Virus record (IMG/VR): IMGVR_UViG_3300013132_000171
Span: 1 to 30,764 of that record
Length of the DNA stretch: 30,764 nt
Source: a virus
Direction: 5' to 3' (one strand)
The notes beneath the pieces are model-generated. The model had not been told where the DNA came from, did no database searches, and saw only the letters and a program-made list of their open reading frames with translations. A program made the position numbers and the translations under genes. Shown one piece after another: positions 10,556 to 28,679 of this stretch (position 1 is the stretch's first letter; each line of letters begins with the position of its first letter).

Positions 10556-11745
10556 TCCCAATTTATTTACAAAACACAATTTTAAATAATAATCATGCTG
10601 TCAATAATTTAATAGAGTTATTGACAGAGGAAATATTAACCACACAAAATAAATCAACATCTGCATCAAATATTCTTAAAAATGATCAAAGATTCAATAC
10701 AAATAATTTAGAAACTTGTGGGACTCTTTTTGATATTACTAAATTTATTCCACTTTGGATAATAAAAGAAAAAGAAGAACGTGAAAATGGTGGTGAATCA
10801 GTACTTACAATTTATGATTTTTTACAAAAATATTATGATTGGTTGTATTGTGATAATTTTACTGGTGCTCAGTATGGTCTTTCCAAGAATATATTGGATC
10901 TTATAGATGTCAGAAAAACAAAAGAAAATTTAATAAAAAATCTATATTCTGTTTATGGAGAATCATTGACTGGTATTTTTGATTCAGATTCACTAGATGT
11001 TGGTCGAACAGAATTAGAAAAATTCTTTATTGGTATACGTAAGAATTTTTATCATAGAAAAGGTACTGAAGATGGTATAAGAAAATTACTGACCACTTTA
11101 TTTGTAATTGATAAAGCTGATATTGAAATAGAAATACCAAAACAATTTATTTTACGACTTAATGGTGGTAAATTTGCAGATTCAAACTTCACATTTAGAA
11201 CTGGAACCGGAGACACTGGTGGATATCTTGAAAAGGGTGATCTATCTGGTAGTTATCTAAATTTTTCGAGATTGCATGATACCAATTGGTATCATGATTT
11301 CTCTTATTTAGTATTTGTTGGTCCTAATTATAATGACAATGATGATTTAGAAGAAGTTTATAGAAAGAGTAATCATCCGGCTGGTACTCATTTAATATTT
11401 GGAAAGCAATTGTCTGATTTTCAACCATCAGAACCTGATGATGAAAGCGGTACAGTATGTGAATATCCAATGTTAGCAAATTATGCTCCATATAAATTGA
11501 ATATAACCTATGCCGCATTGGGATCAATTAATGGATTGTCTTTCTATGGTATTACTTCTTGTGTTGGTTGTTGTGGGGCAAGTTTTTCTGGATTTACTGG
11601 TCCGACTCATAGATTTCCAAACTGGAATCAATTAATTACTGAAGACAGTTTTGGTAATATAAATATACAAGATTTTATTATTTTATGTTATGCTGATGGA
11701 ATCACTAGCCCAAATGAAAATCTAACCTGTACTGGTTGTAACTAA
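10552..11745 (+). CDS. 7: Baseplate wedge protein, gp7-like / P2 gpI-like, short
   Basis: A 397-residue protein in the gp6-gp7-gp8 position. Residues 80-180 contain FLQKYYDWLYC and FFIGIRKNFYHRKGTEDGIR, the helix pattern (FxxxYYxWL, then YxxKGTxxGxxxLL) seen at the N-terminus of gp7-type and P2 gpI-type wedge proteins. T4 gp7 is 1,032 residues, so this is a much shorter version lacking most of the outer arm. The C-terminal 70 residues are Cys-rich (CVGCC near residue 340, CTGC at the very end), unlike T4 gp7. The start overlaps the gp6 stop (ATGA) and the stop overlaps the next start (TAATG). Assignment as gp7 rests on position plus this motif. Confidence 0.7.
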   Translation: MIPIYLQNTILNNNHAVNNLIELLTEEILTTQNKSTSASNILKNDQRFNTNNLETCGTLFDITKFIPLWIIKEKEERENGGESVLTIYDFLQKYYDWLYCDNFTGAQYGLSKNILDLIDVRKTKENLIKNLYSVYGESLTGIFDSDSLDVGRTELEKFFIGIRKNFYHRKGTEDGIRKLLTTLFVIDKADIEIEIPKQFILRLNGGKFADSNFTFRTGTGDTGGYLEKGDLSGSYLNFSRLHDTNWYHDFSYLVFVGPNYNDNDDLEEVYRKSNHPAGTHLIFGKQLSDFQPSEPDDESGTVCEYPMLANYAPYKLNITYAALGSINGLSFYGITSCVGCCGASFSGFTGPTHRFPNWNQLITEDSFGNINIQDFIILCYADGITSPNENLTCTGCN

Positions 11746-13526
11746 TGCTTAAAAGATCTAAAGACATTCAATCATATATCTCTTCTATAGGAGTAACTGA
11801 ACATCTTCATGTTTTTGTAGGTCAATCAGACAGCACTGCTGAAAATACATCAACTACATCCACAATTGATTTGTGGAGAGACATGGCATTCAGTAAAAAA
11901 GTAAGCAAAGCTGATGTCATAGGTGTAATTAATAATATACCTTGGACTTCAGGTAATGTATATTTTCCATGGAAATCGAATAAATTAAATACTGGTTCGT
12001 ATTATACATGGAATAAAGAAAATGGAAATGTTTATCTTTGTATTCAAAATAATACTTATAATCGTATAGATCGTGAAGGTCAAAATGCATCCACATATAT
12101 TCCAAATCATGCATATGGGATACAATCTTATCCAGATGGATATTCTTGGCTTCCAATCTATAGAATTACTGGAGATTTATTAAGATTTGTTAAGACAGAG
12201 TGGATTCCAGTTATTTCATTTGAAACTTTTGAAGAACAAACATTTACTACTGAATTTATAGCACAGACTGAATTTTGCTCAAATAATGTTAATGCTACTG
12301 GTTCATGTGCCTTGTATTTTAAAGAAGACAATCAGTTGCCAATATCTGGTATAAGTTTTGAGACAAATAGTAGTGGTGATTTATATACATCATTTACTAG
12401 TGAATGCTCTGAATGTTATACTCTTTTTAATAATAATCCTAAATTCTATAGTAAGTTTTATCAAACAGGAACGAGTGTTGATTCAACTTATATAATTGAA
12501 GATAAATTTGATTTAATTGGTAGATTGATAAGTGAAAATAAATTACCAGCTTCATCACCATATTATGCTTTATATGAAATTGCAAATAATGGACCAGATG
12601 ATGGTGCATTAATTTCAGCACAGTTAAATCTATCTGGTATTACAACAAATGATTTAGTGGTTACTATAGCAAATCCAGAAATAACCATCACATCTGCCAC
12701 TGGTTATAATGCCAGAATAAGATTTTTAACATATACTAATATTGATGGTAAATTTATAATAGAAGGTGTAGAAATATTAGATGGTGGGTCTAATTATAAA
12801 GATGTATCATTAAGTATTAATTCATCTATATTTGATAATAATGGAATAGTTGATATAATTTTAGCTTCTATTAATATTAATTATGATAATATTGATGGAT
12901 TAAATGTTGATCCATATGATGTATTAAATTGTAATAATGTTATGGTAGATGCTAGACTTGATACAAATGAGTTATATACTAGTTCAATTCCATTACCAGA
13001 AATAATAAATCTTTTTGGTCTTGTATCTAATCCATTAGAGGAACTTCCAACAGGTGAAGTAGTCATTTCTGGTTCTGAGTTATCACCATATAATAGTAAA
13101 TATAAATCTGGCGGTTCTACAATTTCAATTTATTATCCTGGAGATGATTCATTTGGTTCACCAACTGTTTTACCAAGTAAAGGTACTGGAAACGCGATAA
13201 CAACAACTGGTTCTGCAATAAATACTATTAGAATTTTACAAAATGTTACAAATGATCCGACATACTTAGTAGGATATCCATCACTACCATATGAATCTAT
13301 TGTTACTTTGAGTGGAATAGATTATTCAAATTTGACTGGATTAACAAATTTTACTGATACAAATGGTAATGAATTTATAGTAAATACTATAATTTCTAAA
13401 CCATCATTCAAACAATATTCTGGTAAAGTATTACAAACTAAAAAAACATCAAGGGATCTTAAATTAACAACTACATCTGGTTCTTTGTCTAGAATAATTA
13501 GAATAAATATGATTAAGGGATTATAA
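11745..13526 (+). CDS. 8: Baseplate wedge protein gp8-like, enlarged
   Basis: A 593-residue protein whose first 170 residues match the T4 gp8 (334) layout: a short helix, then EHLHVFVGQSDST (residues 19-31), a DLWRDMAFSKKVSKADVIGV segment, a YYTWNKENGNVYLCIQNN segment (T4: VYRCLD), and PDGYSWLPIYRI, where T4 has DGYVWEYLFEIP. gp8 is a dimeric wedge subunit between gp7 and gp10. The remaining 400 residues are Thr/Ser/Asn-rich beta-type sequence, with a gp8-like block including GVEILDGGSNYKDVSLSI (about residues 340-360), a motif common in gp8 proteins. It overlaps both neighbours by TAATG. An AATAAATACTATT sequence at 13217 is probably chance. Confidence 0.82.
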   Translation: MLKRSKDIQSYISSIGVTEHLHVFVGQSDSTAENTSTTSTIDLWRDMAFSKKVSKADVIGVINNIPWTSGNVYFPWKSNKLNTGSYYTWNKENGNVYLCIQNNTYNRIDREGQNASTYIPNHAYGIQSYPDGYSWLPIYRITGDLLRFVKTEWIPVISFETFEEQTFTTEFIAQTEFCSNNVNATGSCALYFKEDNQLPISGISFETNSSGDLYTSFTSECSECYTLFNNNPKFYSKFYQTGTSVDSTYIIEDKFDLIGRLISENKLPASSPYYALYEIANNGPDDGALISAQLNLSGITTNDLVVTIANPEITITSATGYNARIRFLTYTNIDGKFIIEGVEILDGGSNYKDVSLSINSSIFDNNGIVDIILASININYDNIDGLNVDPYDVLNCNNVMVDARLDTNELYTSSIPLPEIINLFGLVSNPLEELPTGEVVISGSELSPYNSKYKSGGSTISIYYPGDDSFGSPTVLPSKGTGNAITTTGSAINTIRILQNVTNDPTYLVGYPSLPYESIVTLSGIDYSNLTGLTNFTDTNGNEFIVNTIISKPSFKQYSGKVLQTKKTSRDLKLTTTSGSLSRIIRINMIKGL

Positions 13527-14179
13527 TGGCAAACGATTTATTTGGAGATATCGCAAATCCAACCTCGCTGAGTAGAAAACCATTCTATTCAAGATTTACT
13601 TCTTTTGAAAATACAGAAGATAATTATATTTTAATTGGATTTACTCCAGGTTTGGCATTACAAGCTGCTGAATTAAATGAATTGCAGGATATTTATCATA
13701 AAATTGATAAACTCAGTAATACAATGATGTCTAATTGGACATTATATGCTTTACAAAATATAAATGATGTAGATAATTTTACAGGTATTATTTGGGATGG
13801 TACTGTTCCAATAAGTCCGGATATGATTACTGTAAATGGTAGTATTATTACTTTTGCTTCTGGATGGTATTATTATAATCATTCAAGTGGTGTTAATTAT
13901 TGGATACACTCTCCAATTAATAGAACATATGATACTTCATTAGATTCGGAAACTGGATTTATCGGATTTACTATTACAACTAATGATATTTTTGCATCGT
14001 CTGATGATCGTTTATATGATAATTCATCTGGAAATGTAAACACAAATAGTCCTGGTGCTTACAGAATAGATCATTCAATAGCAAGTTCAACATTTAATCA
14101 AAATGGTGTTGGAGATATTAAAATAATAGTACAAAAAACAAATAATACATTTACATATCCAAATGGAATGCCAATTTAA
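13526..14179 (+). CDS. Baseplate-associated structural protein, DUF4815-like N-terminus
   Basis: A 217-residue protein. Residues 20-70 contain a motif known from wedge-attached proteins of T4-like marine phages: an FTSFENTEDNYILIGFTPG segment, then LALQAAELNELQDIYHKIDKL, in which G-x-x-LQAxELNELQ followed by a helix is the recognisable part. The rest is beta-rich with a likely small sandwich (WYYYNHSSGVNYWIHSPIN at about 115-133). It would link the baseplate to the fibres downstream. The position, directly after gp8 and directly before the fibre, equals T4 gp9/gp10, but no similarity to those is visible. It overlaps gp8 by TAATG, and a 12-base spacer carrying AAAGG follows. Confidence 0.6.
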   Translation: MANDLFGDIANPTSLSRKPFYSRFTSFENTEDNYILIGFTPGLALQAAELNELQDIYHKIDKLSNTMMSNWTLYALQNINDVDNFTGIIWDGTVPISPDMITVNGSIITFASGWYYYNHSSGVNYWIHSPINRTYDTSLDSETGFIGFTITTNDIFASSDDRLYDNSSGNVNTNSPGAYRIDHSIASSTFNQNGVGDIKIIVQKTNNTFTYPNGMPI

Positions 14180-14191
14180 TAAAGGTAAAAG

Positions 14192-16489
14192 ATGCCAGTT
14201 ACAAATAATACATACACAATCACAACACTAGGAGCCACGGCTACTTTTTATGATTGGTTTAATAAAGAAAATAATGATATTATTGCTAAATTAAATCTAC
14301 TCAAGGTATATGGAGCAACTAGTGGTGATGGTGTACTCGCATCTACAGATACAAGTGGTCAATTAACACTTTCAATAGGTGGTACATCTGGAATTATTCA
14401 ATCACCATTAACATTTAATAATACGATTACATTTAATGGCACTGTAAATATACCAAGTGTAAATCTTCAGGTAAGTGGTATTACAAGTGGAACCGATGGA
14501 TATACATTTGGTACACCAGTAAGAATTTATCTTGATTCTTCTACACAAATTATTGGGTATACTGCTGCAAAGGCAAATAATCCAGAAAATGCTGAAGTTC
14601 TAGGTTTACTATCATCAAGAGGAACATCATATTCAAATATAGTAATTTCAGGAAAAATTTCAGGAGATTTTTCAGGAATCTATACTCAAGGTTTAAGTGC
14701 TGGTTGTATTTACTTCTTGGATAGCAATACTGCTGGAAAAATTGACGATGATGAACCCCAAACCACAGGAACTGTATCTAAACCACTTTTAATGGGTTTA
14801 ACACTCACTGAAGGCGTTGTGTTAAGTTATCGTGGTAATTATCTAAATTATGACACAACCAGTTACGGATCTTCAGGATCAAATCAAATTGTATTTTCAA
14901 TTAATACATCAACTTATACAACAGCAAATTCTGAAATATTATTAGGAGATGTGCTTTCTTATAATGAAACATATGCAGAAACTGTAGAAAATTTAGGTAA
15001 TGATGGTGGAAATAGAAAAAATTATGGTGGATGGTTCCACTCAAGAGCTGGTGGAGATGAAGAAATTTATATTGTTGGAGTAGTAATTGAAAAAATTTCA
15101 GTAGGTGGTTATCTTTATATAACTCTTCAATTATCTGGATATACTGAAGTATTTTCACAAAATGGATTAATATTTCTTACTGATACATTTGATTTAAACA
15201 ATAGAAATGCTGATCCACAACTTGTAAGTGGATCAAGTCAAATTGAAAATCTTCCATTGATTGCAATTAATTATGATTTCCCATCTGGTTATTCAATTAT
15301 TGATATTCAGAAAACCATCACAACTTCATCAGGAAATAGTTTACGAACATCATCAAGTTCAGGAAGCCAAAATTATCTTGTAAATGGCAATTTTGAAGTT
15401 TGGCAGCGTTCAAATACAGGAAGAGATACTTCTTATACTTCTATTGGAAGTCTTGCATTTGCTGACATGTGGAGAAGACATGATGGTATTACTGGTGGTA
15501 CTTCATTCAAGAATTATTATATAACAAAACAATCATTTGCAGATTACCAGGTTGATGTTGAAGGAAGTCCAAATTTTTATATTGATATTAAAGCACTTGG
15601 TTCTTCAGCAGCATCATATCCTGGTATAACACAATCGTCATATCCAGGATTTACATTCTATGATCATTTGATGGTGGGACATGTTGTACCTGATGCTAAA
15701 TTCTTTGATGATAAAAATATTTCAGTAAGTTTTTATGCAAAGACTTCGCATTCAAATTACAATAATGTTGCTATTTATTTGGCTCGTTATAATGGTACAA
15801 CTCTATTAGATTATAAAGTAATAGGAACGGCATCACTTACAACTAACTGGAATCGTTACGACTTTACAACATATATTGATAATACTCCATCAGGTGGAGC
15901 ATTAAGTAATGATTATTCAGAAGTTGGAATTGATCTTATCCCTCTTATAACACAAGCAAACGAAGCATCAGAATCATTATCAACAAATGTTTATGTTTCA
16001 GTAGCATCATTCAACGCTTCTAGTGGTATTTCATCAATTAAGCATCATTCATTTGATCCATATGGTAAACAATTACAATATTGTCAACAATATTATTATT
16101 CAACATATGCAAGAGAAGAAAGAATTGGCACTCCAACTTTAGCCTCAACATTTGTATCATCTGAAACTACACCATATTTGGTAACAATACCAAATTATGC
16201 ATCAGTAATACACGAACTTCCTATTCATATGCGTATTACACCAAGCGTTTCGATTTATTCCCCATATAGCGGTTCAACAAGTGAAGGATATAATCAATCC
16301 GCTCAACGTGAATTGAGATATACAAATGGAACTGTTGGATATAATAGTGCCATTCGAAGTGCTGATGGTTCAACTGCAATATCAGCCACACCGAGAATAA
16401 ATAATATTAAAATAAGTTTATTGAATGGTTATGTGCCATATGATCAAGTTTATTATCACTTTATAGCAGACGCAGATTACCCAATCTAA
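14192..16489 (+). CDS. Tail fibre with carbohydrate-binding-like domain
   Basis: A 765-residue protein. The N-terminus (TYTITTLGATATFYDWFNKENNDIIAKLN) is the typical start of phage fibre proteins that attach to the baseplate. Residues 128-215 form a small module repeated in the next gene. Residues 395-620 begin YLVNGNFEVWQRSN and contain FADMWRRH, the hallmark of the jelly-roll carbohydrate-binding region in many fibres (NGNFxVWQRG, then ADRWR), followed by sandwich strands. The C-terminus has the conserved KQLQYCQQYYYST segment (about 626-640) and a beta-rich tip. It would bind host surface glycans. A clear AAAGG site at 14181-14185 precedes the ATG by 6 bases. Confidence 0.85.
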   Translation: MPVTNNTYTITTLGATATFYDWFNKENNDIIAKLNLLKVYGATSGDGVLASTDTSGQLTLSIGGTSGIIQSPLTFNNTITFNGTVNIPSVNLQVSGITSGTDGYTFGTPVRIYLDSSTQIIGYTAAKANNPENAEVLGLLSSRGTSYSNIVISGKISGDFSGIYTQGLSAGCIYFLDSNTAGKIDDDEPQTTGTVSKPLLMGLTLTEGVVLSYRGNYLNYDTTSYGSSGSNQIVFSINTSTYTTANSEILLGDVLSYNETYAETVENLGNDGGNRKNYGGWFHSRAGGDEEIYIVGVVIEKISVGGYLYITLQLSGYTEVFSQNGLIFLTDTFDLNNRNADPQLVSGSSQIENLPLIAINYDFPSGYSIIDIQKTITTSSGNSLRTSSSSGSQNYLVNGNFEVWQRSNTGRDTSYTSIGSLAFADMWRRHDGITGGTSFKNYYITKQSFADYQVDVEGSPNFYIDIKALGSSAASYPGITQSSYPGFTFYDHLMVGHVVPDAKFFDDKNISVSFYAKTSHSNYNNVAIYLARYNGTTLLDYKVIGTASLTTNWNRYDFTTYIDNTPSGGALSNDYSEVGIDLIPLITQANEASESLSTNVYVSVASFNASSGISSIKHHSFDPYGKQLQYCQQYYYSTYAREERIGTPTLASTFVSSETTPYLVTIPNYASVIHELPIHMRITPSVSIYSPYSGSTSEGYNQSAQRELRYTNGTVGYNSAIRSADGSTAISATPRINNIKISLLNGYVPYDQVYYHFIADADYPI

Positions 16490-16499
16490 GGAATAATTC

Positions 16500-16979
16500 A
16501 TGCCATCCTCTACTAGTTCAAATATACGAGCATCTAATACTGTAGTTAAGTTATCATCAGAAGGTGGTAATAGACTAATGGTACAGATTGCTTCTGCTCA
16601 AATTGCTCCTCCTGGATTATCTGCTGGAGATGTAATTTTCTATAGTGGTGCATCTGCATATTATAAACGATCAAAAGCCGATGATCCGGCAACAGCAGAA
16701 GTATTTGGCATTGTAGAAACAGTAGATGTTTCTGGAAATGCAAATGTCGTGCTATATGGATCTATTGGTTTGACAGGATTTATTGACGTAGATGATGGTG
16801 GTGCTGGAGGTCATGATATTTACTTTTTAAGTGGAAATACTGCTGGAAAATTAGAGTCATTGGCTCCAACAATCCAAGATCACATAGTTAAACCCGTATA
16901 TCAAGTAGCTCCTCATGGAAATTTTACAGGAACGGTTGTAAATTATATCGGTTATAAAGTACCAGTAAGTGACTCATAA
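16500..16979 (+). CDS. Small structural protein, paralogue of a fibre module
   Basis: A 159-residue protein whose residues 60-150 parallel residues 128-215 of the upstream fibre. DDPATAEVFGIV pairs with NNPENAEVLGLL, IYFLSGNTAGKL with IYFLDSNTAGKI, and VVNYIGYK with VLSYRGNYL, with nearly equal spacing (46/44 and 39/36 residues). It therefore looks like an independently encoded copy of that module, perhaps a fibre or virion decoration. An AAGGA Shine-Dalgarno sequence (16488-16492) with 7-base spacing supports the start, and the stop overlaps the next gene (TAATG). No enzymatic motif is seen. Confidence 0.7.
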   Translation: MPSSTSSNIRASNTVVKLSSEGGNRLMVQIASAQIAPPGLSAGDVIFYSGASAYYKRSKADDPATAEVFGIVETVDVSGNANVVLYGSIGLTGFIDVDDGGAGGHDIYFLSGNTAGKLESLAPTIQDHIVKPVYQVAPHGNFTGTVVNYIGYKVPVSDS

Positions 16980-19696
16980 TGGGATCTACAGGAAGCAGTT
17001 ATGTTTATTCTTTAGATATAGAATCCTATAGAAGAGGATTAACTGGTCCTACTGGACCAAGAGGTTTAACTGGACCAATTGGAGCCACTGGTAAAGGTAT
17101 TACAGGAGCAACAGGTAATCCTGGTGCAAGTCTTACTAATATAACAATAGCTCAAGATAAATCTTTTATATTTCATTATAGTGATAATACAACTATATCA
17201 TCATCTGAGGCGATTATAGGCGCAGATGGTTATTCAAAAATTAAATTAACTGGTATCAGCCTTGCTAATTTTAGTCCTTTAAGTGGTTCTCTAACTGATC
17301 AAACTTACGATACTGAATTTCCTGTTGATACACTAATATTTAAAGGTTTATCTTCTGCAAGTTCTCCATATGTAAGAGTAAATTATATTGATGATAATAG
17401 AATCAGAATAGATTTTGATGCGATAAATATTGGCTTTATTGGTATAAGTGGTGGAACATTAGGAAATATATTACAAAATCTACCAGGTCAAAATCAGGCT
17501 GGTATTACATCAACAAACTACGATGAAACTGAAAAATCAGTTCTTATTCAACATAAGAATATTCAAGAAAGTCTTGTAATATGTAAACCAACAGTGGTTA
17601 ATTCTTCATTAGTTTATTGGAAAATAGACTCATCACTTGGTTCAGTATTTCATATTAATCCATATACTACTACATTGAATACTAATAATGAAATAAATGG
17701 TTATGTATTCTTTATTAAAGAACCACCAGTTGGAACTTTATCAAAAGGACTTGTTGTTCAATTTCCTGATACATTTGTTTTAAATTCAAATAAAATTTAT
17801 TATGTATTGTATGACGATGATACAGATATAGATTCCGGTATTACATTTGGTGATAATTTCTTTAATCGTTTTGATGTAGCCGGACTTGAATGGCAAAATA
17901 ATACGTATTTTTGTCCAGATGGAAAATATAATACATTAAATTTAATATCATTAGGTGGACGTTATTTAGCGTATCCAGTTCAATATGAACAAGACACAGC
18001 AAGCTCGACAAGTTATATTAATTCACAAAGTTTAAGTACAACTTGTTATCCATATGAAGAAAGAGCACCAACACAACAATTCTTTACTGGTGGTCTATGC
18101 TGTTCAGGAAATTGTTCGTCTTCTGCATATGAAAGTATAAGTGGTGGATGTACTGGTTATTTTATACCAACTAAAAGAATAAGTAATTCTTCTCTTTGTA
18201 GCAGAAATGGAAGTTGTTGTATAAAAATAAACGACGATACTTATACTCAACATGAATCAACATATTGTCAATGTTCAACCATGGCTGATGAAAAAGAATT
18301 TGTTTTCCATCCATATGAAGGATTAAAAACAACAGAACGTTGGTTCAATTGTTTTGCTGCCTGTTTCGGACCAGTTACAATTGGTGCATGTTGTGATGGT
18401 TTAGGTACTTGTTATGAAGATGAAAATGAAAATGTTTGTCAATCACAGGGATATTTTTTCCAAGGAATCGGAGTAAAATGTAAACCTGATGATCAAAGCA
18501 CTAATATTTGTAGTGGTGGATCTGGTGGCTGTTGTGATTCTGGTGTTAGTTGTGTAAATGGATATACAGGCAGTCAATGTATTTCTGAAAGTAAGTCATA
18601 TCTTGGTGATCAAAAATATTGTCAATCATATACATGTTCTCCTGATTCTATTTCCTGTTCACAGACTATTCCAGGAATATCTGAACTCAAGCAAGGTGAT
18701 GAGTATGCTGGTGGTATAGTTGTTGGTATATTTAATTTAGATCAATCTAAAATATTTGGTAATCTTATATTTTCTACTATAGATAATTATACAAATTTTG
18801 ATTCAATAGATCAGATTAATTTAAATGATACATTATCAAATAATTATACTATAAAATATGATTTTCACGGTTATGGCTTTGATAAGCCATTTATTACAAG
18901 AACATCAAAAACCGATAAATTTATTTTGATTATCTCAAAAGATGATTTGACATTGAATAGTACTAATGAATTTGTATGGTCTAAAGGACAAATAGCATGG
19001 GGAAATATCTATAATCCTATAACAAATACAGTTGAAGAAATAACATCTACATCTGTGTTTAATCAGGGTGAGGGTATTATATCAAATACTAATATAATCA
19101 ACAATACTTTCGCCAGTTCTTCAATAAGAACCAGTGGAAGTGCTTTACAATGGTTGTTTAGTCAATCATCATCTGGATATACAGCAAAATGGCGTAGAAA
19201 TTATGGTCTATATAATACACATAGATTAATGACATCTAAATTATTATATTCGGAAGATACATCAATTACAGATTCGACTATTTACGAAGCCATTAAAAAA
19301 TATAATATTGATAATCCACCAACTTCAGATCGTGAGTCAAGTTGGTTTATTCCATCACATGATGAGTTGGGTTTTATTTCATATCTAACAAGAGAAATAA
19401 ATGATTTTAATATAAATGGATCATTATTATTATCTGGTTACTCTCAATTAGATGGTACATATTGGACTTCTACTGGAGCACATACAACTGCAAATGCAAA
19501 TAGTACATCAAATAAAGGATCTAACGCATGGATTCATTATATCGATGCAGCTCGTCCAGAAGATAATTATTCAATTACAGCAAATAGAATACAAAATACA
19601 TATAAAGTCAGACCAATTAAGCTAATACGGTGTGATGGGTCGTATCCTTTACCCGGCGATGAAACTTACAAACTATGGCGTTTGCCTCTAATCTAA
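16979..19696 (+). CDS. Collagen-like, Cys-repeat, lectin-like adhesin 1
   Basis: A 905-residue multidomain protein, likely displayed at the baseplate. Residues 20-51 are Gly-X-Thr/Pro collagen-like triplets. Residues 55-200 are a beta region. Residues 371-560 hold about four Cys units (LCCSGNC, GACCDGLGTC, GGCCDSGVSC and a GSCC unit). Residues 573-885 match the DUF1566/Lcl_C (C-type lectin-like) family: GDEYAGGIVVGIF, then SSWFIPSHDEL (783), YWTSTGAH (827) and a final VRPIKLIR. That family has GGxV, W-(R/x)-(L/I)-P, YW(S/T)ST and RPVR landmarks. The function inferred is binding of a host surface ligand; the exact ligand is unknown. It has no signal peptide, as expected for a virion protein. 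The last 20 codons are GC-richer than the flanks. Confidence 0.8.
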   Translation: MGSTGSSYVYSLDIESYRRGLTGPTGPRGLTGPIGATGKGITGATGNPGASLTNITIAQDKSFIFHYSDNTTISSSEAIIGADGYSKIKLTGISLANFSPLSGSLTDQTYDTEFPVDTLIFKGLSSASSPYVRVNYIDDNRIRIDFDAINIGFIGISGGTLGNILQNLPGQNQAGITSTNYDETEKSVLIQHKNIQESLVICKPTVVNSSLVYWKIDSSLGSVFHINPYTTTLNTNNEINGYVFFIKEPPVGTLSKGLVVQFPDTFVLNSNKIYYVLYDDDTDIDSGITFGDNFFNRFDVAGLEWQNNTYFCPDGKYNTLNLISLGGRYLAYPVQYEQDTASSTSYINSQSLSTTCYPYEERAPTQQFFTGGLCCSGNCSSSAYESISGGCTGYFIPTKRISNSSLCSRNGSCCIKINDDTYTQHESTYCQCSTMADEKEFVFHPYEGLKTTERWFNCFAACFGPVTIGACCDGLGTCYEDENENVCQSQGYFFQGIGVKCKPDDQSTNICSGGSGGCCDSGVSCVNGYTGSQCISESKSYLGDQKYCQSYTCSPDSISCSQTIPGISELKQGDEYAGGIVVGIFNLDQSKIFGNLIFSTIDNYTNFDSIDQINLNDTLSNNYTIKYDFHGYGFDKPFITRTSKTDKFILIISKDDLTLNSTNEFVWSKGQIAWGNIYNPITNTVEEITSTSVFNQGEGIISNTNIINNTFASSSIRTSGSALQWLFSQSSSGYTAKWRRNYGLYNTHRLMTSKLLYSEDTSITDSTIYEAIKKYNIDNPPTSDRESSWFIPSHDELGFISYLTREINDFNINGSLLLSGYSQLDGTYWTSTGAHTTANANSTSNKGSNAWIHYIDAARPEDNYSITANRIQNTYKVRPIKLIRCDGSYPLPGDETYKLWRLPLI
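17036..17131 (+). repeat. Collagen-like Gly-X-Y tract in adhesin 1
   Basis: Eleven Gly-initiated units at residues 20-51, mostly GLT, GPT, GAT and GPI, with a one-step register break at GKG. Such tracts form trimeric stems in phage fibres. Confidence 0.85.
18090..18660 (+). repeat. Cys-repeat array in adhesin 1
   Basis: About four diverged units with a Cys-Cys pair, a third Cys 3-6 residues later, and one or more further Cys before a C-terminal Cys pair. The units at about residues 467 and 514 are the clearest. Confidence 0.7.
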
Positions 19697-19697
19697 A

Positions 19698-22664
19698 ATG
19701 ACTATAGGAAGTTCATTTCTACCGTATACTAGCAACATTATAGGACCAACAGGGCCGACAGGTGCTACTGGAGCAACTGGTCCCACCGGAGCAAGTGGCC
19801 AATTAATACTTGGACCGACTGGTATTTCTGGCCTTGGGATTACCGGATTTACATATATTTCTGGTAAAAATCTTACAATTTATATTGCTGGTACTGGATC
19901 AGTTGCTTTAGATATCCAGGGAAATACATCAGCATACACTAATCAATTTGCTGTTTTAAAGGGTAATACGACAAATGGTATTTCTGTTATTGTGCATAAT
20001 ACCGCAGACTTAAGAGATTTAAATGTACAACTTTTAACCGAAGGATCGACTCTAGCACTTAAAGGTATAACATTTAAATCATCAACAAATTCATATTTGT
20101 CGATTACTTCAGATGTTAATAAAATTTCTGTTGTAGGAAAGACATATAGCGTATATCCAGTTGGTGATACTGGAAATATTGCATATATCTATGGAATAAC
20201 AAAAGCAAAAGGAATTCCAAATTCTTACTGGTATAATGGAATTTCTATGCTTGATATTCCATTAGCATCAGAAAGACATGCAATTCATAATAATATTAAT
20301 TATGGAACTTCTCTTTCATTTACACAAAATATACTTGGATTCAGTGGTGCTACTGGAATATCAACGACTTTGTTGAATTTTAATCCGGCTTATGCAATAA
20401 ATCCAAATTTTTCAAGATATCAGGTAAATTTTGATGTAAATAATAAAATAGAATTAAATCAGACATTACATATTGGCTCTACAGGAGCAACTAATTTAAA
20501 CATAACATTCCTTAAAAATACTTATAATCGTGGTTATTCATTTACACCACAATTAATTACTAATGAAAATGTAGGATCGTGTTGTTTCTGTGAATTAGAT
20601 GAAACTGTTGATGATATTAAGTGTATTGATTATGCCAATGAAGAGTATTGTTTATCAATGGGAGGTAGCTTTAGAACAACTTCATGTTCGACTAGAGTTA
20701 TAAATGGAGACTGTTTCTCAGAAGGTGCATGTTGTTTAAATGATAAATGTGTAAATACATCACAAGATTTATGTTTAAAGTATGGTGGTATTTTCCACCC
20801 ACTTCAAGTATGTAATAATACAAGTGGTGGTGATGAATATTTCACATGCCCAACAACTTGTCCAAGTGAAATCGAAACAGGAAAATGTTGTGTAAATGGA
20901 AAATGTTTTGATAATTTTACAAATTTTGAATGTTTATCATTGAATAATAGTACATTTTTTAAAGATGGTATATGTGATACTTCTTCAGGTGATTGTGATT
21001 CTGATTGTTTTGATACATCAAAGGGTGGTTGTTGTAAGCCAGATGGAACTATTGTACAAACTGATGCTAACACTTGTAAAGAACAGGCTGGAATATTTTT
21101 AGGACCAGGTATTTTTAGTGGAAAATGTTGTACAAAAGATACTTCAATTGAATATTTTAATTCTAGTGATAATCTTTCTTGTAGAGCCACGGTTAATATT
21201 CCATGTCTTGATATAGGAACAAGACTTGGTGGTGGTTATCTTGTAGGAATTATTGGTGAACCATCTCCATGTACATCATTCTCATTTCCATTAATTGCAG
21301 AAGGTCAAGTTTTAGGATGTAGATATTATCCAAGAGGATTTATATCTGGTGGAGTAGATTATCGATATAAAAATTGTTTTGGTGGATCTGGTCAAACATT
21401 TGGTACTACAGATTTACCAGCATCTAAATTAAATATTAAATATTTTGCTAGAACACATCCTGATGTATTAAATCAAGTAGATAATAGAGAAAATAAATGT
21501 TTATTTAAAGGTGGTTCACCATATGTTATGCAAACATATGAAGGTAAAGTTAGAAAAACCGAAAGTTCTGCTGATGATATACAATGGCTAAATCTTGGTA
21601 TGTACGAACCAAGTCCATATGCAAAGGCATTATCATATCCTACATCAGAATTAAACAATGTTCTATTATTTGAGGGCATTGGACTACCTAAATCAGATAC
21701 TTATAGATCATTAGCAAAGCAATTTTATGGTTCGGCTGGAATTCCAGTACTATGGGCATTGATTGTTGCACCAAATGATATAGAACTTAATGGTGGAGAT
21801 AAATCACTCAAATGGGGTATGTCAGAAGGTAGAATAAAGGGATTAAATAATTCAAATCTTGAACCAATAAATACATGTCCTTTAGATGGTTTATTGACCA
21901 CACGAATGCACGACGAAACATCAAAACAAAATAGTTTCTTCTGGTACAGAGGCGAAACAGATACATTGGCATTCGATAGATTCTGTTTCTATGACGGTAG
22001 TGTTTCTGGTAAGAAAAATTGGGCAAATAATATCAATGAAAGTAATATTGAATCAAGTAAGACTGAATTTGAATTCGCTTATTCTAATATGTGGGATTCA
22101 AATAATTCAACAGATAGTTGCACCAAACAAATATCAATAGTAAATCAAACTGGTATAAATGGATATACTGATTGGTATATTCCAAGTATAATTGAATTAA
22201 ATTACATTTATGCCAATAAAAATGATCTAGATTCATCTATGTTATTAAATGGTGATTCAATATTAAATTCAGAATCTAACTATTGGAGTTCTACAAGTCT
22301 ATGTACATTACATTCATGGGATAACAATAATCCTAATGATAAATCAAAATATAAATTATTTGAAACTGCTTCAGGATCATTTAATTCTAAATTTAGATTT
22401 ACTAAGAGTGATTTAAATCTTAATGAATCAGATTTGTATGATTTAAGCATGAATATATGTAATGGTGAAAATATGCTTGTTCAAAGTTTTGATGATGGAT
22501 TTGTTCAGTCAAAAGCAAGAAACACTAAAGCGGCTTCACTTAGACCAGTAAGAAGAATACCAATTGTAATTCTTCCAACTGATACTACATGTAATTATTC
22601 AATCATAAATGCTTATATTGATTATGATTTTGAAACATGTGATTCATGTCCAGATGGATGCTAA
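19698..22664 (+). CDS. Collagen-like, Cys-repeat, lectin-like adhesin 2
   Basis: A 988-residue paralogue of the previous gene with the same order: collagen-like residues 16-33, a beta region with GITFKSSTNSYLSI (about 125), five Cys units (residues 293-500: GSCC, GACCLNDKC, GKCCVNGKC, GGCC, GKCC), then the DUF1566-like domain. It is recognised by GTRLGGGYLVGIIGE, LWALIVAPNDIELN, DWYIPSIIEL (825), YWSSTSLC (862) and LRPVRRIP (948). The lectin part is longer than in adhesin 1. It ends in a short Cys tail (CDSCPDGC). Only one base separates it from the upstream stop, so translation is probably coupled. Baseplate adhesin is inferred from position. The ligand is unknown. Confidence 0.8.
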   Translation: MTIGSSFLPYTSNIIGPTGPTGATGATGPTGASGQLILGPTGISGLGITGFTYISGKNLTIYIAGTGSVALDIQGNTSAYTNQFAVLKGNTTNGISVIVHNTADLRDLNVQLLTEGSTLALKGITFKSSTNSYLSITSDVNKISVVGKTYSVYPVGDTGNIAYIYGITKAKGIPNSYWYNGISMLDIPLASERHAIHNNINYGTSLSFTQNILGFSGATGISTTLLNFNPAYAINPNFSRYQVNFDVNNKIELNQTLHIGSTGATNLNITFLKNTYNRGYSFTPQLITNENVGSCCFCELDETVDDIKCIDYANEEYCLSMGGSFRTTSCSTRVINGDCFSEGACCLNDKCVNTSQDLCLKYGGIFHPLQVCNNTSGGDEYFTCPTTCPSEIETGKCCVNGKCFDNFTNFECLSLNNSTFFKDGICDTSSGDCDSDCFDTSKGGCCKPDGTIVQTDANTCKEQAGIFLGPGIFSGKCCTKDTSIEYFNSSDNLSCRATVNIPCLDIGTRLGGGYLVGIIGEPSPCTSFSFPLIAEGQVLGCRYYPRGFISGGVDYRYKNCFGGSGQTFGTTDLPASKLNIKYFARTHPDVLNQVDNRENKCLFKGGSPYVMQTYEGKVRKTESSADDIQWLNLGMYEPSPYAKALSYPTSELNNVLLFEGIGLPKSDTYRSLAKQFYGSAGIPVLWALIVAPNDIELNGGDKSLKWGMSEGRIKGLNNSNLEPINTCPLDGLLTTRMHDETSKQNSFFWYRGETDTLAFDRFCFYDGSVSGKKNWANNINESNIESSKTEFEFAYSNMWDSNNSTDSCTKQISIVNQTGINGYTDWYIPSIIELNYIYANKNDLDSSMLLNGDSILNSESNYWSSTSLCTLHSWDNNNPNDKSKYKLFETASGSFNSKFRFTKSDLNLNESDLYDLSMNICNGENMLVQSFDDGFVQSKARNTKAASLRPVRRIPIVILPTDTTCNYSIINAYIDYDFETCDSCPDGC
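19743..19796 (+). repeat. Collagen-like Gly-X-Y tract in adhesin 2
   Basis: Six perfect triplets from residue 16 (GPT, GPT, GAT, GAT, GPT, GAS), followed by a looser GPTGIS piece a few residues later. GC is higher than in the flanks because of the Gly/Pro codons. Confidence 0.85.
20574..21206 (+). repeat. Cys-repeat array in adhesin 2
   Basis: Five units starting GSCC, GACC, GKCC, GGCC and GKCC. Full units read x-CC-x(4)-C-x(6-8)-C-x(4-6)-G-x-F-x(3-6)-C, for example GACCLNDKCVNTSQDLC followed by GGIF. Confidence 0.85.
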
Positions 22665-22681
22665 ATAAATTGAGATAAATT

Positions 22682-25600
22682 ATGTCTAAAAGTACTATTG
22701 GAACATATGTTATACAAGGTCCAACTGGACCAACAGGGCCAACCGGAGTCACCGGAAATACAGGAGCCACCGGAAATACTGGACCTACAGGACCAACTGG
22801 TGAATATGGCCGTTATATTCAGTCTATTGAAGCATTTACAAATAGTATTATTTTAACATTATCTGATGGTTCGACACAAGAAGTTAGCGGAAATTTTCGT
22901 GGAGCAACCAGTGAATTTGCAATTTCTGGTACAACTAGTCCAGATGACTCATATAGTTTAATATCATCATTTGATTCTGGTACACAAACTGTGTCAATTC
23001 GTGGAATGACTTTTACAGGATCTTTATATTTAACAGAAGATTCAAATTATATTTACATTCATACAAATATAACAGAGGCTCCATCTGAACTTGATATTGC
23101 AAATCTTAATCAAAATACATTAATTTATTTAAAGACAAATACACAAATATCAAGCACTTCAGTTGGTGTATCATATGATGGAAATTATTATCAAGGTACA
23201 TTAGTATATAATGATACTGGCTCTGGTAATGGAAGAGCAAAATTAAATGCATCTTCAAAAATAAATTATGTTGGTCCAATTTTCAGACAGGATGATCCAA
23301 TCTATCTTGATGCAGATGCGGCAGGAGTATTTTATCTTGCTACACCAATTGGTATTGCTGGTATTACTGGAACATTCAGAGCAAATGAATCAATATCACT
23401 AACTTTAATACCAGAAAATGAAAATATCTGGCATTTCCCATCAAATATTTATTTTGAGTCTGGTGAAAATTATTTAACATGTGGTAAATCAATAATTAAT
23501 ATTACATCCACAGACCAGGGAGAAACCTGGCTTGCAACTGTAGCCGCTAGAGGATTTGATGTTGATACCTCAACTTGCACAATATCAAATACATTAGGTT
23601 CATGTTGTTATCAAACAAGTGATCTTACACAGAAATGTCAAGATTATACGAATAAAGAAACATGTGATTCATTATTTGGCACGTTTTATCCTCTAACTTC
23701 ATGTCAAACATCATGTGGTGAAATAGGTATTTGTTGTTCTAATGGAAAATGTATTGAAAATTCAAATCCGGCTGAATGTGTTTCATTTGGTGGAATTTTT
23801 TATAGTGGATTAACATGTGGAGCCTACGAAAATAATCCAGATGCTGAAAATTTTGAAAATAGATTATGTCCTAATAACTGTGAACCTGATGGTTTAGTTT
23901 CTTGTTGTAAAGACGGCATTTGTCTAGGTGATAATTATACTAAGTTAATTTGTGAAGAATTTTTTGAAGGCGTGGCTTCAGAAGGACCGTGTAGTGAAGC
24001 AAATTGTTGTGATCAGACTGTAGGTATTGGAGCCTGTTGTACTGGAGTGGGATGCTTTCAATTAAATAAAGTTGATTGTGATAAAGCCTCTGGTATATTT
24101 CTCGGTGAAGGTTTTAGATGTGAAGAAGTAAATTGTGATTGTTTTGCACCACCTGAACCTACAGGTTCATGTTGTGTTGGAACGTCTTGTACAGAGGGGG
24201 TATTAGAAGCCACTTGTAGTGGCTCTTGGGCAATATTAACATGCGCTCAGAGAAATAATTGCCAACCAACACAGAATACAGTTACTTGTTGTAAAACTTT
24301 ATCAAATGGAAATAAAGAATGTACCCCTAATGTACTTTCTTCTATATGTACGAATATTGGTGGTGTATCTGTAGACAGTTGTGATGATTGTCAAAATCCA
24401 CAAGAGACTGGAGCATGTTGTATAAATGGTTTATGTTCAGATAAAACACAAAATGAATGTATTAATCAAGGTGGAATATTCACTGAAGGAGAAACATGTT
24501 TTGAAGTAGCTTGTATTCCTGGACGTTGCTGTAAAAATGGTGTTTGTGCAGATATGTCTCAGATTAATTGTGAAGATGCTGAAGGTAGTTTTACAGCAAA
24601 TACAACATGTATAGAATCACCGTGTGATACTGATGGTCCAGATGATCCAGATCCAGGTAAGGGAGCATGTTGCTTTGACGAAACTTGCACAAGCGATGTT
24701 AATGAGCAGGATTGCCTTGGTGATTTTTATGAAGGATCTGTTTGTAATAGTAATAATTGTGAGGATGATCCATTCGGTGCTTGTTGTGCTCCAGGAAGAT
24801 GTTTAGAAGTTCAAGAATCTTTATGTACGGCTGATGATGCTGTTTTTACTCTGTTTGATGGAGAAATAAAGAGTTGTGATGATGTTGATTGTGATGAAAT
24901 ATTAGGTGAAGGTGATGAAGGAGGAGTAGGATGGCCTGGTTTTGGTGGAGGCGGAAATGCTGGGCGTGGTGGTGGTGATGCGGGTCAACCACAAACTACC
25001 ACTAACTGTAATAGTAATCGAAATTGTTGTTGTGTTGAATATAAGTACTGTAAAGATGTTTTAGCTGGAAATTGGTCTACAGTTGCCAAGACATATAAAG
25101 ATACAATATGTACTCGAAAAAGTTTACCTCCTGTTGATTGCTCAGAAATTCAAGCTGCTTTTTCTGTTCCGTGCAATAAATATAAAGATTGTTATAAAAA
25201 AATAGCAGAATATTGTGCATATAAAAATGGTTTTAACTTGTGTAGCTATAGCAACCAGAATGACGCATTTAATACGATATTTGGTGTTGATGCGAATGGA
25301 AATTATAGTTGTAAAGATTTATATTCTAAATCTGATATTGATAACTTTTATTGTCCACAATTACAGGAACAAGATATCGTAACTTATTTAAGAAAATATA
25401 TATGTTTAGCCACCTCATATGCACAAATGTCTGATGCAGAAAAAGAAGATGTTTTGTGTCAAAATGCGCCAAGTTTGTGTAGTTTTAGCGGTTTATGTAT
25501 TAATGGAGATAGTACTCCAACATTTTTTGATAAACCTACTGGAGTAGATTGTCCCGATGAGGGTAGTTTGCCACGAACACGCCAAACTAGCCCTAATAGT

Positions 25601-25894
25601 GGGTTTATAACATCTACTAGATCTTGTGTTGGAAATTCTTGTTCATCTACCCATTTTGATCCTTGTCGTAAACAATGTATGAGTATTGTAAATCCATGTT
25701 GTAGATCTGAATGTGAAAGTTTAGGACTTTCCTCTTGTCCCGAATGTGTATTAAAAATAGGAAATTGTGGTACATCAAATCCATTTGTTGGTGTTAGAAA
25801 TCTTAAAGTAACAATAAATAATATAGATTTATGTTTACCAATTGTTTCTGACGGAGAGTTGACTGATTTTGATGAATGTGAAGGATCAATATGA
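22682..25894 (+). CDS. Collagen-like, ten-unit Cys-repeat protein (adhesin 3, no lectin head)
   Basis: A 1,070-residue protein with the same start as adhesins 1 and 2: collagen-like residues 13-42, then a beta region with RGMTFTGSLYLTEDSNYIYI (about 110). Residues 306-740 carry about ten Cys units, for example GACCINGLC, GRCCKNGVC and GACCTGVGC, with an intervening GGIF or GxF. There follows a Gly-rich linker (about 742-770, WPGFGGGGNAGRGGG) and a 300-residue C-terminal domain, also Cys-rich (NCCCVEYKYC near 783, CRKQC and CCRSEC near 995-1007). This end domain is not recognised, and no DUF1566 lectin domain is present. It is probably a long rigid stalk with its own tip. It starts 17 bases after adhesin 2 and ends in an ATGA overlap with the next gene. 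Confidence 0.78.
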   Translation: MSKSTIGTYVIQGPTGPTGPTGVTGNTGATGNTGPTGPTGEYGRYIQSIEAFTNSIILTLSDGSTQEVSGNFRGATSEFAISGTTSPDDSYSLISSFDSGTQTVSIRGMTFTGSLYLTEDSNYIYIHTNITEAPSELDIANLNQNTLIYLKTNTQISSTSVGVSYDGNYYQGTLVYNDTGSGNGRAKLNASSKINYVGPIFRQDDPIYLDADAAGVFYLATPIGIAGITGTFRANESISLTLIPENENIWHFPSNIYFESGENYLTCGKSIINITSTDQGETWLATVAARGFDVDTSTCTISNTLGSCCYQTSDLTQKCQDYTNKETCDSLFGTFYPLTSCQTSCGEIGICCSNGKCIENSNPAECVSFGGIFYSGLTCGAYENNPDAENFENRLCPNNCEPDGLVSCCKDGICLGDNYTKLICEEFFEGVASEGPCSEANCCDQTVGIGACCTGVGCFQLNKVDCDKASGIFLGEGFRCEEVNCDCFAPPEPTGSCCVGTSCTEGVLEATCSGSWAILTCAQRNNCQPTQNTVTCCKTLSNGNKECTPNVLSSICTNIGGVSVDSCDDCQNPQETGACCINGLCSDKTQNECINQGGIFTEGETCFEVACIPGRCCKNGVCADMSQINCEDAEGSFTANTTCIESPCDTDGPDDPDPGKGACCFDETCTSDVNEQDCLGDFYEGSVCNSNNCEDDPFGACCAPGRCLEVQESLCTADDAVFTLFDGEIKSCDDVDCDEILGEGDEGGVGWPGFGGGGNAGRGGGDAGQPQTTTNCNSNRNCCCVEYKYCKDVLAGNWSTVAKTYKDTICTRKSLPPVDCSEIQAAFSVPCNKYKDCYKKIAEYCAYKNGFNLCSYSNQNDAFNTIFGVDANGNYSCKDLYSKSDIDNFYCPQLQEQDIVTYLRKYICLATSYAQMSDAEKEDVLCQNAPSLCSFSGLCINGDSTPTFFDKPTGVDCPDEGSLPRTRQTSPNSGFITSTRSCVGNSCSSTHFDPCRKQCMSIVNPCCRSECESLGLSSCPECVLKIGNCGTSNPFVGVRNLKVTINNIDLCLPIVSDGELTDFDECEGSI
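22718..22807 (+). repeat. Collagen-like Gly-X-Y tract in adhesin 3
   Basis: Ten perfect Gly-initiated triplets at residues 13-42, with Thr in the third position in all but the last (GPT, GVT, GNT, GAT, GEY). Confidence 0.9.
23597..24900 (+). repeat. Ten-unit Cys-repeat array in adhesin 3
   Basis: About ten units of 35-50 residues. Openings are GSCC, GICC, VSCC, GACC, GSCC, VTCC, GACC, GRCC, GACC and GACC. Best units: CC-x(4)-C-x(7-8)-C-x(4-5)-G-x-F-x(3-5)-C-x(3-4)-C, giving six Cys per unit. The 24394-24625 part holds the two most regular adjacent units. Confidence 0.9.
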
Positions 25895-27342
25895 GTATTC
25901 AATTTCGTTCTAGAGTTAAATCAGTAGCAGATTTTGGTCCAGATTTGAAGGCCGTAGGCACTTGTTGTTTTCCAGATGGAAGTCGTGAATCAATTTCATT
26001 TTATGAATGTTTTGTAAAAAGCGGAACATTTTTTTCAGGCACTGATGTAGAATGTCCAGATCAAGGTGAACAAATATTATGTTATGCCTGTTCGTATCTT
26101 ACATCATCACAAAAAACACAAGTAATTGATGATTCTACTATACTAAATTCAAATCCAACATGGGGAACCAAAACTGTAACAAGATGTGAATGTTCACGTA
26201 TAGGTGGATCGCCTTCTAAATTAGATTCTGCTGGTAGAGATATTAGAATTCCAAAAGCATGTTGTTTTATTGATTATAATGCAAATGGATTTCCCGTAGG
26301 AATAACTTGTGAAAATGTTTGTTCAGAAAAAGAATGTTCACTTAAAGGAATTACATTTGAAAATGGTGAATTAAAAAATACACCTATTTTCACATCAGAT
26401 AAAACGTGTGAAGAAGTTTCATGTGAACCATCTAATATAACTCCAGCAACATTTACAAAAATGGCAACTGGTTCAGATGAATTTTTAAATTTTGATATAG
26501 GAACTTGCTATACTTTATCCAAGGGTGAGTCAGCATATTCATATTCATGTGATCTTAAAATGCTTCATGAATGTTCTGGTTATTGGACATCTTCCGACTT
26601 TGGAGATAATGGAACAATATTCTGCAATCATCCCTACGCTCCCCAGACTCCAACTATTGAATCTGGTCGTATAATAGAGCCAGAAATTATGTCAGAATCA
26701 TCATTTGATGCGTTAAATCTAAAGATTGGAGATTCATATAAAGGTGGAATTTATATTGGTAAGTTTCAAGTTAATTCAGTTGAATCAAAAGTATATGGAT
26801 CTTTAAATCTTAAACAGCCAGAAGAAAGATATTATGAAGATAATTCTCCAAGAGATCAATATAATAAATGGGCATTGATTGTTGACTTTGATGAATATAA
26901 TCTAGCCTTTTTAACATCAGATGAGATGAAATATGATCCAGCCGAAACTTCTTTATCAGATGGTTTCTATAATTGTTATGGAAATAAAAATAGTTTCTTT
27001 GGATTAAGTAATATTACTCTTAATACAATTAAAGGCAAAATAAGAAATGGTTTTGCTGATTATTATATTCCAAGCATTATTGAGTTGTATTTTCTAAATA
27101 ATGCTATTCGTAATAATTCTGCATTAAATGATATATTAGGAATCGAAAATAATTTAACATCATCATCATTTTTCTTCGAAGATCTAACTTCTCAGAAAAC
27201 AAAACAAAGTAGATTTAATAATCTGCTTTTAAACTATAATACAAGTATAAATAATAGTACAGAAGAATTCGGTAAAACCTATTTGATTCCGAGTACAACT
27301 AAAGGAAATGTGAGATTTTTTAGAAAGGTAATACTAACATGA
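25891..27342 (+). CDS. Short Cys-repeat protein with degenerate lectin-like domain (adhesin 4)
   Basis: A 483-residue relative of the three upstream genes that lacks the collagen-like stem. Residues 23-180 have two Cys units (GTCCFPDGS and KACCFIDYN). Residues 279-483 match the DUF1566-like domain at IGDSYKGGIYIGKF, KWALIVDFDEYNL, DYYIPSIIELYFL (388) and a terminal RFFRKVIL in place of RPVRR. The YW(S/T)ST landmark is replaced by LTSSSFFFED, so the ligand site may be changed or lost. It could be an assembly partner of adhesins 1-3 or a decaying copy, although the frame is intact. Its start overlaps the adhesin 3 stop (ATGA) and its stop overlaps the next start (ATGA). Confidence 0.75.
   Translation: MSIQFRSRVKSVADFGPDLKAVGTCCFPDGSRESISFYECFVKSGTFFSGTDVECPDQGEQILCYACSYLTSSQKTQVIDDSTILNSNPTWGTKTVTRCECSRIGGSPSKLDSAGRDIRIPKACCFIDYNANGFPVGITCENVCSEKECSLKGITFENGELKNTPIFTSDKTCEEVSCEPSNITPATFTKMATGSDEFLNFDIGTCYTLSKGESAYSYSCDLKMLHECSGYWTSSDFGDNGTIFCNHPYAPQTPTIESGRIIEPEIMSESSFDALNLKIGDSYKGGIYIGKFQVNSVESKVYGSLNLKQPEERYYEDNSPRDQYNKWALIVDFDEYNLAFLTSDEMKYDPAETSLSDGFYNCYGNKNSFFGLSNITLNTIKGKIRNGFADYYIPSIIELYFLNNAIRNNSALNDILGIENNLTSSSFFFEDLTSQKTKQSRFNNLLLNYNTSINNSTEEFGKTYLIPSTTKGNVRFFRKVILT
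25957..26430 (+). repeat. Two-unit Cys-repeat array in adhesin 4
   Basis: Two units begin at residues 23 (GTCC) and about 126 (KACC), separated by a linker with its own Cys residues. Both retain the later GxF/GITF and Cys-x(3)-Cys elements. Confidence 0.7.
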
Positions 27343-27845
27343 GCTGCAATTGTGGAAAAAATAAAGATAATGCTAAATTTAGAACAGAAGAAATTAAAAA
27401 AGAAAATGTAGTTGCAGAAAAAGTCACAATGATGCAAAATTTTGCATCAGCAATTGTTTCAAGGGGCGTTTCAAATAACAAAGTTAGTTTGCCTGTAAAG
27501 CAACTTAGAGTTGCATCCTGCTTTGGAAACATGAAGCAGGGTGGAGAATTGCCACCATGCGAACATCTTAAACCAAGCACTACATCTGGAAAATTCTTTT
27601 GTGGTGGCTGTGGTTGTGGAGATAGAGAAGGTACGTGGCTTGTGGCAGAAGGCGATAAGTATTCAAAACTAGACTATCCAAAATTAGCATGTCCTCTTCA
27701 AATGCCAGGATTTTCTAACTACAAAAAATCAGATCCTTCAGAAGCCGAAGAACCAATTACGAGAAGATATTATATTGAAAATAATCTTACATATAAGGAT
27801 CTTGAAAAAATACCAGTAACGATTCATGCACCGACTAATAAATAA
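27339..27845 (+). CDS. Small Cys-rich putative metal-binding protein
   Basis: A 168-residue protein that I cannot assign to a named T4 gene. It begins MSCNCGK. The middle (residues 72-130) has PPCEH followed by FFCGGCGCGDREGTW and then LACPLQMPGFSNY. The C-E-H, CGGCGC and C-P pattern suggests a zinc or other metal site, possibly with disulfides. The region encoding it is richer in G+C than most of the window. It has a GAAAGG site upstream inside the adhesin 4 gene, and the start overlaps that gene by ATGA. It lies between the adhesins and the neck genes, roughly where T4 has fibritin (wac), but shows no coiled coil. It could be a virion or assembly factor. Confidence 0.65.
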   Translation: MSCNCGKNKDNAKFRTEEIKKENVVAEKVTMMQNFASAIVSRGVSNNKVSLPVKQLRVASCFGNMKQGGELPPCEHLKPSTTSGKFFCGGCGCGDREGTWLVAEGDKYSKLDYPKLACPLQMPGFSNYKKSDPSEAEEPITRRYYIENNLTYKDLEKIPVTIHAPTNK

Positions 27846-27853
27846 TATCTCCA

Positions 27854-27861
27854 TATAAATA
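27854..27861 (+). promoter_or_regulatory. Candidate T4-type late promoter upstream of gp13
   Basis: An exact TATAAATA octamer, the T4 late -10 element, lies in the 30-base spacer between the Cys-rich gene and gp13. This is the longest gene-free gap in the window. An AGGAG ribosome site follows at 27866-27870, 5 bases before the ATG. With T4 spacing the transcript would start near 27867, at the ribosome site itself, which is very short and weakens the call. By chance about nine such octamers per strand are expected in DNA this AT-rich (my estimate). Confidence 0.4.
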
Positions 27862-27875
27862 AAATAGGAGATTTT

Positions 27876-28679
27876 ATGGCAGCACCAAATTCAAGAGATT
27901 CTATTATAGATTATGCTCTAAGAACTCTTGGTAGTCCAGTTATTGAAATTAACGTAGATAGAGAACAATGTGAAGATCGTCTTGACGAAGCTTTACAATT
28001 CTTTATAGAACGTCATTTTGATGGTGTTGAAAAAGTATTTTTTAAATATCAAATTACTCAAACTGATATGATAAACAAATATATTGATGTAAATAATATT
28101 GGTGGTTGGGATGGAAATGCTAATTCACGACCAAATGGTACTGATATTATCTCAGTAGTAAAATTATTTCAATTTGGTAATTTTGCTAATATTGATATGT
28201 TTGATCTTAAATATCAATTAGCTCTGGTTGACTATTTCGGTATCAATAGAGGTATGAATGGTGGTGGATCAATGGGTCTTGCATCATATCATTATACAAA
28301 ACAATATATTAAATTGATTGAAGACTTCTTTCAGGGTGAGAAAGCTTTACGATTCAGTAAAGTGACCAATAGAATTCATATTGATGGGACTTTGACCGAT
28401 TTAATTGTTGGTGATTATATAGTATTTGAGACATATGCAGCACTTGATCCAGAAGAATATACAAAAATATTTGATGATCGTCTTCTTAAAAAATATCTAA
28501 CTGCACTCATAAAAAGACAGTGGGGTGCAAATATGGCAAAATACGATGGTGTCCAGCTTCCTGGTGGCATAGTAATGAAAGGCGGACAGATATATGCTGA
28601 AGCAGCTAGTGAAATAGTCGCCATAGAAAATGAATTCATAACTACTCACGAATTGCCAGTAAATTTCTTTGTAGCATAA
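27876..28679 (+). CDS. 13: Neck protein gp13
   Basis: A 267-residue protein (T4 gp13 is 309). The N-terminus (IIDYALRTLGSPVIEINVDREQ, in two pieces over residues 10-31, then ERHFDGVEKVF) is the standard gp13 pattern, and the helix-strand layout continues to the end. gp13 and gp14 form the neck that closes the packaged head and receives the tail. It has the best ribosome site in the window (AGGAG, 5-base spacing) and a possible late promoter in front, which fits the start of a new transcription block. gp14 follows after one base. Confidence 0.92.
   Translation: MAAPNSRDSIIDYALRTLGSPVIEINVDREQCEDRLDEALQFFIERHFDGVEKVFFKYQITQTDMINKYIDVNNIGGWDGNANSRPNGTDIISVVKLFQFGNFANIDMFDLKYQLALVDYFGINRGMNGGGSMGLASYHYTKQYIKLIEDFFQGEKALRFSKVTNRIHIDGTLTDLIVGDYIVFETYAALDPEEYTKIFDDRLLKKYLTALIKRQWGANMAKYDGVQLPGGIVMKGGQIYAEAASEIVAIENEFITTHELPVNFFVA

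Follow-up and report, generated by a model that had tools for sequence, protein, structure and literature searches.

The locus described here raises the question of which proteins a T4-type myophage encodes between gp8 and gp13, the interval that in T4 holds gp9, gp10, gp11, gp12, and fibritin (wac). The window, i.e., the whole stretch of DNA that was analysed, spans an entire IMG/VR record (30,764 bases), and its gene content is that of the tail operon of a T4-type myophage. Genes of the tail tube, gp4, gp48, gp53, a 1581-amino acid tail protein, gp25, gp6, a gp7-position protein, and gp8 are located upstream of the cassette under study, and gp13, gp14, a sheath stabiliser of the gp15 type, and gp16 downstream of it. 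The left border of the interval is gp8 (11745..13526; both borders, the genes between them, and the parts of these genes are on the + strand), which matches PHROG 438 as does T4 gp8, and whose family profile retrieved T4 gp8 from the PDB (E 6e-10). The right border is gp13 (27876..28679). Eight genes lie between them (13526–27876), designated u217, u765, u159, A, B, C, D, and u168. The initial annotation had reported A to D (16979–27342) with their exact lengths of 905, 988, 1070, and 483 amino acids, but erred in regarding these four as the whole content of the interval, which also contains the genes of 217, 765, 159, and 168 amino acids.

Gene A (905 amino acids; 16979..19696) encodes a short N-terminal peptide followed by a collagen-like run (residues 20–52; 17036..17134), a beta module (56–360), a Cys region (368–562), and an Lcl_C-type head (563–905; 18665..19693). 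The same succession is found in gene B (988 amino acids; 19698..22664) with N-terminal peptide, collagen (16–48), beta module (50–288), Cys region (290–502), and head (497–988). Gene C (1070 amino acids; 22682..25894) has the N-terminal peptide, collagen (13–43), beta module (44–300), Cys repeats (301 to approximately 740), an exchanged distal half, and a short C-terminal cap without any lectin head. Gene D (483 amino acids; 25891..27342), whose start overlaps the end of C, consists of a Cys-rich N-terminal part (15–235) and an Lcl_C-type head (236–483) and has no collagen. N-terminal peptide, collagen run, beta module, and Cys repeats are thus common to A, B, and C, and the C-terminal head is common to A, B, and D. 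Collagen-type Gly-X-Y triplets number 7 in A, 7 in B, and 11 in C, with none in D; runs of at least six were obtained in 0–2 of 2000 shuffles, and collagen stalks of this kind are, according to the PHROG matches, typical of phage tail fibres.

In whole-profile comparisons A aligned with B over the first approximately 580 positions (E 1e-37), and B with C over approximately 480 positions (E 4e-44). Since these scores owe part of their strength to collagen and Cys composition, each module was excised from the deep alignment of its family (18 sequences for A, 22 for B, 24 for C, and 43 for D), and the modules were compared separately, profile against profile. For the beta module the profile probability was 97.9% between A and C, 79% between B and C, and 46% between A and B (E 3e-5), the A–B pair alone thus being weak. 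The Cys regions matched with 99.9% (B–C), 97.3% (A–B), 96.8% (A–C), 77.9% (B–D), 67.3% (A–D), and 27% (C–D), and the heads with 99.4% (A–D), 98.9% (B–D), and 98.2% (A–B); head matches were short with earlier profiles of 6–12 sequences and became clear with the deeper ones. The tail of C reached 0–0.1% against the heads, and controls with unrelated modules 0–0.3%. The proposal that all four proteins are built from shared parts, each with a different subset, is therefore borne out, with C devoid of a head and D of both collagen and beta module. A genome scan for a cellular source of the Cys repeats yielded no confirmed relative.

In A, B, and D the head is C-type-lectin-like and of the DUF1566/Lcl_C type. 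Within the B head, Lcl_C (PF07603) was matched at 22092..22316 (E 1.7e-6; 28.7 bits, below the cut-off of 34.9), and at E<0.01 the domain was detected in 20 of 22 members of the B family, 7 of 18 of the A family, 7 of 43 of the D family, and none of the 24 members of the C family. An AlphaFold model of D (mean pLDDT 86.8) had as its best PDB match in Foldseek the C-terminal domain of Legionella Lcl (8q4e; probability 0.98, TM-score by target 0.59, with a weak E-value of 0.034), far ahead of snake C-type lectins, and its best viral matches in BFVD were DUF1566 phage proteins (E 5.7e-6). The structure model of B, calculated from 8 sequences, reached a pLDDT of 31.8, too low to be of use.

Comparison of the gp8–gp13 interval across related metagenomic phages, which had been suggested as a check, revealed a constant order of the cassette. 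Dozens of divergent viral contigs share the succession A-B-C-D-u168-gp13, with 27 distinct A–B junctions, 35 B–C, 40 C–D, 52 D–u168, and 55 u168–gp13, while the identity of A–D orthologues to those of the window falls to approximately 25%. Variation within the clade is confined to the distal part of C, extra copies of C, and the u765/u159 region. Throughout the relatives, a given gene is more similar to its counterpart in the window than to any paralogue, and the duplications thus predate the clade. Recent duplication was considered as well and was rejected, as orthologues always outscored paralogues. Of the scenario of duplication and module loss in the initial annotation, duplication with differing modules holds, but the duplications are ancient, loss is indistinguishable from gain, and the distal half of C has been exchanged.

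These findings are best explained, and in our judgement probably so, if an uncultured T4-type myophage resembling the Kyanoviridae uses A to D as its receptor-binding proteins and encodes them in a host-recognition cluster flanked by a VrlC-like baseplate gene and by the neck genes. The old paralogues A, B, and C start with a short conserved peptide that probably attaches to the baseplate or neck; their collagen run would form a trimeric stalk, their beta module and repeated Cys modules would lengthen it, and their C-terminal part would reach the host. The heads of A and B would bind surface glycans as trimers by analogy to Legionella Lcl. Instead of a lectin head, C has a rapidly exchanged segment of another kind that is closed by a conserved cap, and D is a stalkless head on a Cys-rich base. 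Trimeric stalks and glycan-binding heads are proposed on the precedent of collagen and Lcl, and the host-recognition role suggested earlier is supported by resemblance, through modules and locus. Counting against this explanation, the Foldseek match of D to 8q4e has a weak E-value, the heads of A, B, and D change no faster than the remainder of their genes, and Cys-rich modules are unusual for assembly in a reducing cytoplasm. The abundance of conserved cysteines in these modules points to disulfides or metal sites.

Alternatively, one or more of the four proteins, most likely D, might serve as whiskers or head fibres and be mounted on the neck or head instead of the baseplate. D lacks a collagen stalk, and the pair D–u168 is always located directly upstream of gp13, the place of the fibritin gene in T4; however, gene order alone does not give a location in the virion, similarity to wac is absent, and the head of D is the same as in A and B. 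A neck or head location appears unlikely, if conceivable.

A lower probability still is assigned to the view that A to D are true orthologues of T4 gp9, gp10, gp11, gp12, or fibritin that have diverged past recognition. They occupy the same syntenic interval and are all elongated and probably trimeric, but only this generic fibre-like plan is common to both sets, and no module is. The profiles of A to D compared with T4 gp9, gp10, gp11, gp12, and wac, which were represented by single sequences, gave probabilities of 0–1.1%, whereas in the same comparison the gp8 profile, serving as positive control, recovered T4 gp8 at 89.9%. PHROG and PDB profile searches with A to D did not match T4 gp9–12 or wac either, and no T4 baseplate or fibritin chain was among the best 50 Foldseek matches listed for the D model. 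The stated lack of resemblance to T4 gp9–12 is thus confirmed, and it is very improbable that these are the T4 proteins in disguise, although with single sequences on the T4 side a very remote homology keeps a small probability. That the cassette stands in place of T4 genes 9–12 and wac is correct as to the interval, but the absence of these genes is not peculiar to this phage. A search with T4 gp10 matched 1462 phage records, with no Synechococcus or Pelagibacter phage among the names and matches listed, and in pelagi- and cyanomyophages this stretch has been described as the ‘host recognition cluster’ (PMC7029224); together, these indicate that phages of this branch of the T4 superfamily generally have the replacement.

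The published cluster (PMC7029224) has the same place in the T4-type structural module, from VrlC to the neck genes, and likewise contains fibre-like genes whose products have collagen and carbohydrate-binding domains while lacking gp9–12 and wac. It is, however, large, hypervariable, and non-syntenic, whereas the cassette described here is compact and fixed in order, with VrlC cut to 217 amino acids and with A to D unmatched in phage records: A, B, the N-terminal half of C, D, and u168 found no match among 50,697 of them. The cluster itself is thus already known, and what is new is the fixed A-B-C-D-u168 content, to which cultured phages have nothing related. Tentatively, with somewhat less than even confidence, the cassette might represent an undescribed type of T4-family adsorption apparatus, clade-wide and with a minimal VrlC, in which three lectin-headed proteins and one fibre with an exchangeable tip are borne on Cys-repeat stalks or bases.

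Exchange of the distal half was observed in C. Relative to contig IMGVR 3300042478_000653, whose gp14 is 93.5% identical to that of the window, the identity of C drops in the part comprising residues 491–1030 (24152..25771), from 89% in the beta module and 65% in the first Cys part to 31% in the second Cys part and 14% in the tail, the last two being alignable only in part. The protein is lengthened from 1070 to 1510 amino acids in this contig and is longer still in other relatives, while the C-terminal cap (25772..25891) keeps a similar sequence in most forms, whether short or long. Wholesale exchange of this kind is restricted to C and does not occur in A, B, and D; the distal segment of C is probably the main specificity determinant. 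C itself is duplicated in some contigs (4 distinct C–C junctions). In one relative of 156.7 kb, C-like genes form a tandem pair whose second member encodes more than 2400 amino acids, and tRNAs and a tmRNA are present as well; the last approximately 25 kb of this relative contain many overlapping, odd ORFs and may be chimeric.

DUF1566 C-type-lectin-like heads are a classic target of diversity-generating retroelements, phages included (PMC8143477), but such a retroelement acting on the heads of A, B, and D is most improbable, because no reverse transcriptase was found in 19 relatives (mostly incomplete contigs, some larger than 100 kb) with positive control genomes, no template/variable repeat pair exists in the window, and the heads, similar in identity to the rest of their own genes, evolve no faster than it. 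Equally implausible is that the products leave the infected cell or are exposed on its surface rather than being virion proteins, as the secreted cell-surface adhesin Lcl of Legionella might suggest, since the genes lie within a conserved baseplate–neck operon with overlapping starts and stops.

Receptor-binding proteins on the virion, the preferred reading, have a close parallel in the architecture of Lcl, a trimer consisting of an N-region, a collagen region, and a DUF1566 head that binds glycosaminoglycans (PMC11162425). A and B likewise combine an N-terminal region, a collagen run, and a DUF1566 head (PF07603/NF046116; 8q4e), of which D has the head only, but the phage genes add the beta module and Cys repeats, have much larger heads, and lack a secretion context. 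Scores against the NCBIfam equivalog NF046116 were 16.5 and 17.3 bits at a cut-off of 500; the phage proteins would thus work like Lcl but are not to be filed as Lcl. In other phages, DUF1566 receptor-binding proteins with the same head fold class are tail or tropism proteins (BFVD; PMC8143477), linked to tropism in Bacteroides phages (PMC8143477). Such target genes occur singly or in pairs, some of them under diversification by a retroelement, in contrast to the three head-bearing paralogues found here, beside which no retroelement was seen.

The host range of uncultured T4-like phages is unreadable from their genomes, and a search for the host by exact tRNA match returned none in the genome collection. 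A syntenic, alignable set of four genes, as opposed to the usual scrambled cluster, offers a handle on this problem because its orthologues can be compared across the clade, with the exchanged half of C as the obvious candidate for a specificity determinant. The adhesin plan of collagen and DUF1566, studied in Legionella, would in addition be extended to phage tails.

The remaining genes of the interval adjoin the cassette on both sides. u217 (13526..14179; PHROG 358) is a short relative of VrlC, a protein whose gene comes after gp8 and which has approximately 2000 amino acids in Pelagibacter phage HTVC008M and in Methylophilales phage Melnitz; in the window and its near relatives it is reduced to 217 amino acids and retains parts akin to the N-terminal region of the family. 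u765 (14192..16489) encodes a second fibre-like protein, similar over its C-terminal half to a Stenotrophomonas phage tail fibre (E 4e-7), and PDB searches with u217 and u765 retrieved nothing convincing. The small protein u159 (16500..16979) has a stretch in common with u765 (34% identity, 36 bits), which suggests that part of a gene was duplicated here too, adjacent to the cassette; u765 and u159 both have other sizes in distant relatives. u168 (27339..27845), always located between D and gp13 in the relatives, had no PHROG or PDB match; it is highly conserved and contains cysteines in an invariant CxxCGCGD-type motif that may be a metal site. A promoter scan gave fewer sites than shuffled sequences (61 vs 88). 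Farther upstream, the gp7-position protein (10552–11745) has only 397 amino acids and has PHROG 26741 in common with the 1016-amino acid protein of HTVC008M at that position, and the tail protein after gp53 (3687–8432), with 1581 amino acids, possesses a large extra part beyond the 436 positions of the PHROG 350 family, and relatives have this extra part too.
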